Below are positions 6,623 through 9,501 of a stretch of 37,239 nt of DNA, one piece after another (within the stretch, counting starts at the first letter, position 1; each line of letters opens with the position of its first letter). The translations under genes were made by a program, and so were the position numbers. The notes beneath the pieces were generated by a model, which worked only from the letters and a program-made list of their open reading frames with translations, was not told the origin of the DNA and made no database searches. This DNA is from Lysobacteraceae bacterium (GTDB lineage: Bacteria; Pseudomonadota; Gammaproteobacteria; Xanthomonadales; Ahniellaceae): NCBI GenBank assembly GCA_021299185.1, contig JAJTHZ010000102.1:1-37239 (forward strand). Reading direction: 5' to 3'.

Positions 6623-6685
6623 ATTGACGTTCGTCAATCCGCCGAACTCGACCATGGTCGACGTCGCGCAGTTGACCGTCGTCAA
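6623..6685. promoter_or_regulatory. Three evenly spaced palindromes between ompW and ilvE
   Basis: ATTGACGTTCGTCAAT (6623-6638) is a perfect 7+7 inverted repeat around TT, and TTGAC-CGTC-GTCAA (6672-6685) repeats its pattern; both resemble FNR/FixK/Anr-family sites (TTGAY-N4-RTCAA). Between them lies a perfect 12-bp palindrome CGACCATGGTCG (6649-6660). The three centres are at 6630.5, 6654.5 and 6678.5, exactly 24 bases apart. For ompW, a weak -10 (CACCAT, 6602-6597) lies 31 bases from the first box centre, the same geometry as at the reductase promoter. The sites could also affect ilvE, which starts at 6781. Confidence 0.55.
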
Positions 6686-6780
6686 TGCGCGCGGCGCGCG
6701 GCGTGGCAGCCGCGCGCAGGCCGGCGCGCGCGGCTTGTGGCATCATGCGCGCCCCGTTTTCCGAGCCCGCGGAGCCGTCC

Positions 6781-7698
6781 ATGTCGCAGCGCTATCCCGC
6801 CCACATCTGGCACAACGGCGCGATCAAGCCGTGGGCCGAGGCCACCACCCACGTGATGGCGCACGCGCTGCACTACGGCTCGTCGGTGTTCGAGGGCATC
6901 CGCGCCTACGACGTGCCGGGCGGTACCGCGATCTTCCGCCTCACCGACCACATGAAGCGCCTGTACACCTCGGCCAAGGTGTACGACATCGAGATCCCGT
7001 TCACGCTGGAACAGATGAACGAGGCCTGCCGCGCGGTGATCCGCGCCAACGGCTTCGCCAAGTGCTACCTGCGGCCGGTGGCCTTCCGCGGGCTGGGCGG
7101 CTTCGGGCTGTCGGCCGACACGCCGACCGACGTCGCGGTCGCGGCCTGGGAGATGGGCGCCTACCTCGGCGCCGGCGTGCTCGAGCAGGGCATCGACGCG
7201 ATGGTCTCGTCGTGGCAGCGGATGGCGCCGAACACCATCCCGACCGGCGCCAAGGCCGGCGGCAACTATCTCTCCGGCCAGCTGATCGCGCGCGAGGCGC
7301 GCCGGCTCGGTTTCGGCGAGGGCATCGCGCTCGACACCAACGGCCTGATCAGCGAGGGCGCGGGCGAGAACCTGTTCCTGGTGTTCGGCGGCGAGCTGCA
7401 CACCACGCCGGTGAGCGCCGCGATCCTCGACGGCATCACCCGCGACAGCATCAAGAAGCTCGCTCGCGACGCCGGCATCACGGTGGTCGAACGCCAGTTG
7501 CCGCGCGAATACCTCTACTTCGCCGACGAGGTCTTCATGTGCGGCACCGCCGCCGAGATCACGCCGATCCGCTCGGTCGACGGCAAGCCGGTCGGCGCCG
7601 GCAAGCCCGGCCCGCTGACCGGCCGCCTGCAGGAGCTGTTCTTCGGCCTGTTCAAGGGCACCACGCCGGATCGGCACGGCTGGCTGGAGAGGGTCTGA
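6781..7698 (+). CDS. ilvE: Branched-chain amino acid aminotransferase
   Basis: A 305-residue PLP enzyme of fold type IV that moves the amino group between glutamate and the keto acids of valine, leucine and isoleucine. The PLP-binding lysine is K158 in NTIPTGAKAGGNYLSG, and the downstream ISEGAGENLF segment contributes the phosphate and substrate loop. HYGSSVFEGIRAY near the N-terminus and MCGTAAEITPI near the C-terminus are the standard family signatures. Length matches the E. coli enzyme. The start at 6781 is chosen over in-frame starts further up (6685) because the protein then starts at the family N-terminus. It is not part of an ilv operon here; a GC-rich hairpin follows. Confidence 0.96.
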   Translation: MSQRYPAHIWHNGAIKPWAEATTHVMAHALHYGSSVFEGIRAYDVPGGTAIFRLTDHMKRLYTSAKVYDIEIPFTLEQMNEACRAVIRANGFAKCYLRPVAFRGLGGFGLSADTPTDVAVAAWEMGAYLGAGVLEQGIDAMVSSWQRMAPNTIPTGAKAGGNYLSGQLIAREARRLGFGEGIALDTNGLISEGAGENLFLVFGGELHTTPVSAAILDGITRDSIKKLARDAGITVVERQLPREYLYFADEVFMCGTAAEITPIRSVDGKPVGAGKPGPLTGRLQELFFGLFKGTTPDRHGWLERV

Positions 7699-7699
7699 T

Positions 7700-7718
7700 C
7701 GCCCCGCCGCGCGGGGCG
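7700..7718 (+). terminator. GC-rich hairpin after ilvE
   Basis: CGCCCCG (7700-7706) pairs perfectly with CGGGGCG (7712-7718) across a 5-base loop directly after the ilvE stop. It has no U-run, so it is either a weak terminator or an RNA 3' end stabiliser. The remaining 7719-7873 contains no gene that I can support. Confidence 0.45.
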
Positions 7719-7873
7719 CGCCGCCTCACCAGCGGTGGAACTCCGCGCGGCAACCGCATGCATTCGAATCGAATTGGCCTTCGACCACCTTCCGTGAAGG
7801 GGCCCATCATGCGCAGGAACCAAGCAAAATGTGCTGGGCGCAGCACTTCGTCGCCGAGGACTTCGAGGAGGAC

Positions 7874-7905
7874 TTGACACGCCCCCCCCCCCGCAAAGGC
7901 ATGCT
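7874..7905 (+). promoter_or_regulatory. Promoter-like sequence with an 11-base poly-C spacer
   Basis: A perfect -35 hexamer TTGACA (7874-7879) is followed by a run of eleven C's (7882-7892) and then by CATGCT (7900-7905), a partial -10, giving a 20-base spacer. Loss of three C's would bring the spacer to the optimal 17. This layout, a homopolymer inside a promoter spacer, is the classical structure of slipped-strand phase variation. The next gene starts at 7946. The -10 is poor, so the promoter call is tentative; the poly-C run itself is plain. Confidence 0.4.
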
Positions 7906-7945
7906 CCTCGTGCAGGGGGCACCTAACTTGACAAGGAGCAAGTCC

Positions 7946-8158
7946 ATGACTCGAGCAAAGACGTCTTTCCTCGCTCTTCTACTGTTGGCTGCAGCCATAC
8001 TTCCCGCTCGGGAAGCAGCCGCACAGCAGCGGGTCACAATCAGCGGCACAACGTATACGTGCACGAATCGGTGCAATGTGACGGTGAACCCCAACGGCAG
8101 CTTTACGATTACGGACTGCTGTGGGGGCCAGGTGTCGTTCCGCCTCTATCCTGTTTGA
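7946..8158 (+). CDS. Small secreted cysteine-rich protein
   Basis: A 70-residue protein of unknown family. Residues 1-26 form a clear Sec signal peptide (MTRAKTSF, a leucine/alanine core, then REAAA with a likely cut before QQ). The mature part is only about 44 residues, with four cysteines at 39, 43, 58 and 59, enough for two disulfides, and a beta-rich pattern (VTISGTTYTCTNRCNVTVNP, then GSFTITDCC). AAGGAG lies 7 bases before the ATG at 7946. A longer in-frame reading from 7829 is possible but would place coding sequence through the poly-C run and ahead of the signal peptide, so it is rejected. Codon use is less GC-biased than in its neighbours. It might be a small exported effector or surface peptide; nothing shows which. 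Confidence 0.65.
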   Translation: MTRAKTSFLALLLLAAAILPAREAAAQQRVTISGTTYTCTNRCNVTVNPNGSFTITDCCGGQVSFRLYPV

Positions 8159-8182
8159 ACGCAGTAAACGCGCTTTGGGCGG

Positions 8183-8219
8183 ACAAGAGCGGGCGGCAGT
8201 CTGTCGCCCGCTCTCTTGT
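8183..8219 (+). terminator. Stem-loop after the small secreted gene
   Basis: ACAAGAG-CGGGCG (8183-8195) pairs with CGCCCG-CT-CTCTTGT (8205-8219), a 13-bp stem with a 2-base bulge and a 9-base loop. It lies 25 bases after the stop at 8158 and 42 bases before the next start. There is no U-run; it may be a terminator or an attenuator between two co-oriented genes. Confidence 0.5.
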
Positions 8220-8260
8220 ATTGCCCGCGACAGAGTGCCCGCTTCCCGAAGGAGTCTGTT

Positions 8261-9049
8261 GTGAAGGCATCGGAAGACAAGTCTGAACAGCGCGATAGCG
8301 CAACAAAATCAAGGTTTGGGCTGGCGCTTCTTCTTGCAGCGAGCGCCCTTGTTGCGATTGCGGTGCTTGCGACCATAGCTCGCAACGATACTTCGTCGAT
8401 GCCATTGCCAGAGTCTCCCCAGCGGTACCGTGCGGACCAACAGTCGCTTGCCGCGAAAGCCGCAGAAACTCAGAGCACCGAAGACGTTGACTCCGCCGAG
8501 AATGCTGCGGTTACCAAGCACTCCGCATCACCCGGCGATACCAATGAATATTCGCGCGACAGACTTACTGATCGCCGCAAGCTACAACGAACGCTGTCGC
8601 TGGCCGCAAGCGCCGACTCCCTGCCCAGCGAGCGCGCACTTGTTGTCGGCAATGCGCTGGATGTGGCAGTAGTGGGCCGTGCACTGTTGGGCACAGACTT
8701 CAGAGCTCTTGTCTCCAATCTTTATAGCGAGTCATCAAGAGATGTGCTGGCAAGTGATCTTACGCAGGCGTACGCAGATGCGGTTCGGCTTCAGTTGAGG
8801 GAGACCGGCGGAAAACTAGACTTGTCGAGTCTTGTCTGTGGATTGAAGGTATGTGTGGGCGAGTTTGCTCCCGGTGCAACCGACGCAGACATTGACTCAT
8901 GGCAGGCCGCTTTTGCTCGCGATCAACGCACGCCGCATGGTGTTTTTGCATCCGCATCTACGTCGGCTATGGAGGGCCAAGGGGCGTATCGCTTCGTTTT
9001 CTCGACGGACCCGGCGACGAGAAGCGCGACTGCCCCTCTGTATCCTTGA
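8261..9049 (+). CDS. Hypothetical single-pass membrane protein
   Basis: A 262-residue protein I do not recognise. A charged cytoplasmic N-terminus (about 18 residues) is followed by one strongly hydrophobic helix (about 19-40), then a long Ser/Ala/Gln-rich polar linker (42-120) and a C-terminal region with two close cysteines (C193 and C198 in LVCGLKVCVGEF) and a DWQAAFARD-like helix. The topology suggests an inner membrane protein with a periplasmic domain and one disulfide. The GTG at 8261 is preferred over 8216 because GGAG lies 6 bases upstream. It follows the small secreted gene in the same direction and shares its lower GC, so the two may have been acquired together. No homology-based function can be given. 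Confidence 0.7.
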   Translation: MKASEDKSEQRDSATKSRFGLALLLAASALVAIAVLATIARNDTSSMPLPESPQRYRADQQSLAAKAAETQSTEDVDSAENAAVTKHSASPGDTNEYSRDRLTDRRKLQRTLSLAASADSLPSERALVVGNALDVAVVGRALLGTDFRALVSNLYSESSRDVLASDLTQAYADAVRLQLRETGGKLDLSSLVCGLKVCVGEFAPGATDADIDSWQAAFARDQRTPHGVFASASTSAMEGQGAYRFVFSTDPATRSATAPLYP

Positions 9050-9120
9050 CAAACTCGGACCTTTCCGTAGTCCCAAGCAACGACTGAACGAGGGGGCGTT
9101 GCAGTGCACCGGCGCTAGAA

Positions 9121-9501
9121 TTACTCCCTCAGGCGTGTCCAGGAAATCGGGAGCGGTTCAGACGCGCGGCGCGGCTCCGGGATGGTGCCGGTGTCGTCGA
9201 TCGATTCCCGCCACACGGCAGCGAACTCCCGCACGAGGGTGTCGGTTGGTGCGTAGCCGGTGGAGACGGTGAAGGTGCACTGCTGCGCGGCAACGGTCTC
9301 CAGTGCGAACAGGGCGGCTTCCGGGTCATCGTGCCCGCCGCGCTCATAGCCGGCCGGCACGGCGAAACGGGCGCCCCCGAACGCGACGTCACGCGCGTCG
9401 ACGGCGCCCGCAGCTAGCAGGCCCAGGGCCAGGGCCAGGGCAAGCGTCGCAATGCCCCGGCTGCCGGGCCCGCGTCGCCCGCGACGGTGTTCGGCGATCA
9501 T
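9121..9501 (-). CDS. Small exported hypothetical protein
   Basis: A 126-residue protein, convergent with the preceding membrane protein gene. After an arginine-rich N-terminus comes a hydrophobic signal segment (about residues 18-33, ATLALALALGLLAAG) with a likely cut after VDA. The remaining ~90 residues (VAFGGARFAVPAGYERGG, CTFTVSTGYAPTD) match nothing I know; FGGARFAVPAGYE suggests a small beta-rich periplasmic domain, and a single Cys is present. The ATG at 9501 is the first in frame. It may be the last gene of a minus-strand series after the BNR lipoprotein, 141 bases away. The intervening 9502-9642 shows nothing clear. Confidence 0.55.
   Translation of the reverse strand: MIAEHRRGRRGPGSRGIATLALALALGLLAAGAVDARDVAFGGARFAVPAGYERGGHDDPEAALFALETVAAQQCTFTVSTGYAPTDTLVREFAAVWRESIDDTGTIPEPRRASEPLPISWTRLRE

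Follow-up and report, generated by a model that had tools for sequence, protein, structure and literature searches.

In a 37,239-nucleotide (nt) stretch of DNA from a Lysobacteraceae bacterium (assembly GCA_021299185.1, contig JAJTHZ010000102.1; hereafter the window), a run of eleven cytosines separates a -35-like hexamer from a candidate -10 hexamer upstream of a gene encoding a small secreted protein. We consider this probably to be a sigma70-type promoter whose slippage-prone homopolymer spacer tunes that gene, much as at opc, fetA and porA of Neisseria. On the forward strand, the order is TTGACA (7874–7879, read from the sequence), CG, C11 (7882–7892), GCAAAGG and CATGCT (7900–7905), the last being the best-scoring, though weak, -10 hexamer among spacers of 13–26 and giving a hexamer-to-hexamer spacer of 20. 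The downstream gene, which we call A (7946–8158, forward strand; 70 amino acids (aa)), starts with an ATG 53 nt beyond the tract, preceded by a Shine-Dalgarno-like AAGGAG recognized by eye (7933–7938, forward strand), and its product has a signal peptide, judged by eye and hydrophobicity. An initial annotation of the sequence had described the hexamers, the tract, the spacer and the signal-peptide gene just as we find them, and had read the promoter as a candidate for phase variation. The tract's place in the spacer, the recurrence of the arrangement before homologues and other secreted genes, and length differences between orthologous tracts all speak for that reading.

Gene A is followed by a second gene, B (8261–9049, forward strand; 262 aa), and we analysed the region upstream of this A-B module in other Lysobacterales genomes (labelled Gnnn, with G000 the window's own genome; f-numbers denote GTDB families). 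With an E-value cut-off of 0.01, a protein search with gene A across 398 genomes gave 17 match rows, in 15 of them. Nine rows, in eight genomes, were accepted; the other eight (G036, G056, G267, G197, G280, G333, G214:C13 and G236) had neither a nearby B motif nor a comparable signal-peptide CxxxC open reading frame (ORF) and were dropped as chance. With G278 and G402, found by other searches, and G441, found by the tract search described below, A occurs in 11 genomes (the window's own, G385, G441, G279, G330 with two in tandem, G080, G100, G132, G214, G278 and G402), and a B gene or B match lies downstream in all 11. TTGAC(N), a homopolymer and a -10 region precede four of 11 A-B modules, from three GTDB families: C11 in the window (f1), TTGACG-C11 in G385 (f12), TTGACAG-C13 in G441 (f2) and a run of 17–19 guanines in G279 (f2). 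The G279 assembly breaks at its homopolymer into two contigs, one beginning 88 nt before the start of A and reading A, C, 17 G, C, TAGAAT, the other ending in TTGAC, 19 G and an apparently corrupted version of the sequence that follows the run on the first.

The arrangement extends beyond this module. The pattern TTGACN{0,3}C8 gave 44 match rows, representing 36 distinct sites in 31 of 398 genomes of the order, against 15 counts in 13 genomes for the reversed control; with C9, 16 of 395 family-f2 genomes matched against seven for the control, these genomes being partly shared with the set of 398. We then compared distinct sites joining TTGAC to at least nine cytosines with tracts of at least ten cytosines lacking TTGAC, by a fixed rule that counts a signal-peptide ORF within 200 nt of the tract. 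Such ORFs lay downstream of 15 of 26 TTGAC sites, the window's and 25 others, and upstream of 3 of 26, and downstream of 13 and upstream of 22 of 97 tracts without TTGAC (P=1e-5 for 15/26 against 13/97, and 5e-4 against the other side). Inclusion of a 27th site, L252, which has no downstream signal-peptide ORF, gives 15/27 against 13/97 (Fisher P=1.8e-5), and removal of the doubtful match L302 gives 14/27 (P=7.5e-5). These sites are partly dependent, three coming from G344 and some being orthologues, and the rule misses some secreted genes, such as that for a protein of about 280 aa in G441 and G429, where the two products are 91% identical.

The downstream genes are varied. Small secreted or lipoprotein ORFs follow the tract in G363 (60 aa), G449 (61 aa) and G460 (60 aa, where no Shine-Dalgarno sequence was found), and longer ones in G279 (184 aa), G151 (143 aa) and G166 (151 aa), while G344 has three such promoters, each before a secreted or lipoprotein ORF (147, 157 and 179 aa). 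Two of the G344 promoters, L327:1310 and L327:2962, lie about 1.65 kb apart and share the block TTGACG-Cn-ATCGCAATATCC ... CAATGATGGCA, and their downstream secreted ORFs are dissimilar. Two further candidates from this survey were set aside: GGGG after the tract is a weak feature (7 of 17 sites, shuffle mean 3.9, with 87 of 2,000 shuffles as high), and a secreted protein of about 280 aa in G054 was rejected as kin of the G441/G429 protein (blastp E=0.13).

Tract length differs in all three comparable pairs of orthologous promoters, these being between-species comparisons at loci other than the window's: C9 and C10 in G142 and G166, which belong to one genus (downstream sequence 89% identical); C11 and C10 in G441 and G429 (89% identical); and C9 and C13 in G344 and G279 (71% identical). 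Under the mechanism that we propose, the A-B promoter would consist of a TTGACA -35 and a -10 region held apart by a spacer made mostly of cytosines; replication slippage would add or remove cytosines, changing the spacing and the relative face of the hexamers, and transcription of A, perhaps with B by read-through, would rise or fall among cells of one population. We infer the use of these hexamers by RNA polymerase, the switching of tract length within a clone and its effect on expression. The simplest guess for an ON length is a loss of one to three cytosines, toward a spacer of 17–19.

Promoter switching by simple repeats is documented mainly in host-adapted pathogens. The sabA repeat of Helicobacter pylori sits outside the promoter spacer, and the C-stretch promoters of the Bordetella fim genes are not known to have a -35 hexamer. 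At Bordetella fim2, fim3 and fimX, as in the window, a run of cytosines lies in the promoter, there of surface genes, but here a TTGAC -35-like hexamer stands directly before the tract, whereas the fim C-stretch is flanked by an activator site and the -10 (no activator-site search was made here). It shares with Neisseria opc (opcA), fetA and porA a homopolymer long enough to be prone to slippage, set between the -35 and -10 hexamers, its own -10 being weak; it differs in belonging to another bacterial class, in a best -10 that mostly lies 19–21 from the -35, in being known from sequence only, and in its products, which are CxxxC proteins, small, secreted and paired with an anchored protein, where the Neisseria genes encode outer-membrane porins or receptors. 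The homopolymer at porA, fetA and opc is described as unstable and is thought to alter sigma-factor binding (PMC2791445). Poly-C length is reported to dictate Opc expression, with C11 in the parent and C12 in high expressers (PMC3447861), and fetA poly-C length to vary readily in culture, with C9 and C10 (PMC5231331); at Bordetella fimX a single base of the C-stretch is reported to alter transcript level, C7 giving nearly fourfold more than C8 (PMC1891110). The initial annotation, which named poly-C before surface or secreted genes as a known phase-variation design, judged the kind of element well. At nadA (PMC2791445) and sabA (PMC4081817), too, repeat length is reported to tune promoter output, as we propose here, the nadA tract lying distally upstream of the promoter, unlike ours. 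As the annotation had also supposed, the titles and abstract openings of the open-licence papers listed yielded no such promoter for Xanthomonas, Stenotrophomonas, Lysobacter, Xanthomonadales or Xylella. The A-B pair, the lineage and the spacing of about 20 base pairs (bp) appear new; the proposed mechanism belongs to a known class.

Several results weigh against a slippage-tuned promoter at this locus. CATGCT matches TATAAT at only three of six positions, and a consensus scan of 7600–9200 called no promoter with 16–18 spacing. Seven of the 11 A-B modules have no tract, with no run of seven to eight or more at that place, and G441 came from the tract search itself, so that without it the tract share is three of ten modules. 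Among loci with exactly C8, a signal-peptide ORF was recognized by eye in one of 13 examined (L140); several sites with at least nine cytosines, such as L164, L289, L293 and L299, are plainly not of the secreted-gene type; and the pairing of TTGAC with a downstream G-run shows no enrichment (three of 299 genomes against four for the control). In a survey of 100 interior tracts of at least ten cytosines, among those listed (tracts near contig or stretch ends were dropped; three came from the window's own genome, including the window tract), only three had TTGAC no more than 9 nt away; signal-peptide ORFs lay forward of four and reverse of seven. A C15 tract is mis-assembled at two contig ends of the window's own assembly, so the exact length of the C11 is uncertain. 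The same survey led us to reject long C tracts per se as promoter marks, signal-peptide ORFs being no commoner downstream than upstream of the 100.

The spacing between hexamers bears on both the preferred reading and its strongest rival. We scored positions 13–26 at 20 secreted-gene sites, 14 taken by the fixed rule and six by eye (G142, G441a, G429, G054, G060 and G005). The best -10 hexamer gave a spacer of 19–21 at 12 sites and of 16–18 at two, where shuffled tails gave means of 4.75 and 4.81, respectively, and reached 12 at 19–21 in one of 2,000 shuffles; in a TANNNT test on 18 of the 20 sites, nine fell at 19–21 against 0.83 expected. Because the best -10 hexamers cluster in this way, a predicted spacer near 20 is a common trait of these sites and not peculiar to the window. 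This tells against the suggestion, made in the initial annotation, that slippage would bring the spacer to 17, yet one G279 contig, with its G-run, reads 17. TTGAC-TANNNT pairs in 622 kb were too few to gauge how ordinary promoters of the lineage are spaced. Either most of the assembled states are weak ones, or a C-rich spacer is functional at about 20 bp, and the resting tract length may itself be a working state. At one site in the window's own family (L330, G005, f1; reverse-strand tract at 1984), TTGACA-C8 is followed by a -10-like TATCGT 13 nt away and by a 168-aa secreted ORF; there the spacer would reach 17 by more cytosines, not fewer.

An unlikely alternative is a real promoter that does not vary in phase to a useful extent and whose C-rich spacer has a fixed, structural role, either at about 20 bp or within an activator-dependent promoter. 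That -10-like hexamers stay near 19–21 despite varying C count looks like selection on total spacing, and at 13 sites the spacer varies less than the C count (standard deviations 1.2 and 1.7), the latter being inversely correlated with the rest of the spacer (-0.74). This constancy is flattered, however, by picking the -10 by best score, and a fixed spacer does not need a homopolymer. Moreover, orthologous tracts differ by one to four bases in all three pairs, and tracts of C9–13 are of the length class reported to vary in Neisseria (fetA, C9/C10, PMC5231331; opc, C11/C12, PMC3447861).

Less probable still is a chance or assembly artefact that set a C tract beside an unrelated TTGACA. No homopolymer in the window is longer than the C11, and the sole other run of at least seven is a C8 at 32391; C or G runs of at least 11 are expected in the window 0.64 times from base composition, 0.028 times under a first-order and 0.001 times under a second-order Markov model. 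TTGACA, by contrast, occurs at chance frequency (four observed, 4.17 expected), and the -10 is poor, so the window's elements taken by themselves could be chance; evidence from the single sequence is weak, and support comes from the relatives. Homopolymer errors occur elsewhere in the same 4.84-Mb genome, where 14 runs of at least nine cytosines are spread over 13 contigs and several of them are terminal: a single C15 place appears in two differing versions at the ends of contigs C4 and C97, and contig C67 starts with a 75-base homopolymer bearing one interruption. The window tract, however, lies inside its contig with ordinary flanks, homologous genes in separate genomes from other families are preceded by the same arrangement, and TTGAC-C tracts are enriched before secreted genes. 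Recurrence before homologous A genes, together with this enrichment, makes chance improbable.

Translational phase variation, in which slippage would shift the frame of the secreted protein within a longer ORF, unremarked in the initial annotation, that spans the tract in the gene A frame (7829–8158), is very improbable: the frame is open through the tract in the window and G385, and in G279 back to the contig start within the tract, which is weak support since a C or G tract has no stop codon in any frame, whereas gene A has its own Shine-Dalgarno sequence and a start codon that immediately opens the signal peptide, the peptides encoded upstream in the window and G385 look unrelated by eye, and G441 has a stop between tract and gene.

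Beyond the slippage-tuned promoter at the window locus, we advance a wider proposal more tentatively, judging it slightly on the doubtful side of even: that Lysobacterales carry dispersed homopolymer promoters of one design (TTGACN, zero to two bases, C9–C13 and then a -10 at a distance of about 20 bp) that express small proteins, secreted or lipid-anchored, of several unrelated families, the as yet undescribed A-B pair included, and that length drift tunes each independently, so that in these environmental bacteria the secreted set would differ from cell to cell as with the contingency loci of mucosal pathogens. At the sequence level, gene A has a predicted secreted product, as does the downstream gene at 15 of the 27 class sites. 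If the proposal is true, the repeat-switch trick would serve secreted proteins more widely, in an order of high-GC gammaproteobacteria represented mostly by environmental genomes, and would give a first hint about the uncharacterized A-B pair, as something worth making variably; tract length is a marker readable from existing sequencing data.

The proteins of the module fall below every Pfam and NCBIfam cut-off. Aligned A proteins share the signal peptide, CxxxC and a D..GG end, and a single-sequence structure prediction for the window's A suggests a small beta protein (predicted local distance difference test score (pLDDT) 70.5). B proteins, of about 220–262 aa, begin with what by eye is an anchor or lipobox, continue to CGxxxCxG and close with a motif like HRFIFSTDP; that of the window has an N-terminal membrane anchor, also by eye, and a C-terminal CGxxxCxG...RFVFSTDP. 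The B family is present in 25 of 328 genomes, in families f1, f2, f8, f9 and f12; the B protein had no match among plasmids and no relative among viral contigs, and the structure prediction for its domain was unusable (pLDDT 41). Between A and B lies a terminator-like hairpin of 13 pairs with a weak T tail (8186–8214, forward strand; a consensus match, with four in the region against 1.6 expected), and transcription of B may therefore require read-through or a promoter of its own. Content of guanine and cytosine (GC) drops from about 70% to 52–61% over the stretch from about 7800 to about 9100, as would be expected had the gene pair been acquired, and an Rfam search of 7600–9200 gave no match. 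Upstream of the promoter is ilvE (6685–7698), whose nearest named loci are in two Lysobacterales/Lysobacteraceae metagenome-assembled genomes at about 85% nucleotide identity.

Three other tracts in the window's own genome were recorded. At G000:C90:24111-24119 (L039), TTG-C9-GG with GCTAGCCT precedes another small ORF of secreted appearance and is a candidate for a second promoter built along similar lines. At G000:C190:11290-11298 (L042), on the reverse strand, G9 stands directly before TTGACG, upstream of what appears by eye to be the start of a MecI/BlaI-type regulator. At G000:C231:86217-86226 (L043), a C10 lies about 30–40 nt before repeats at the contig end that resemble a clustered regularly interspaced short palindromic repeat (CRISPR) array, which we take to be type I-F-like.
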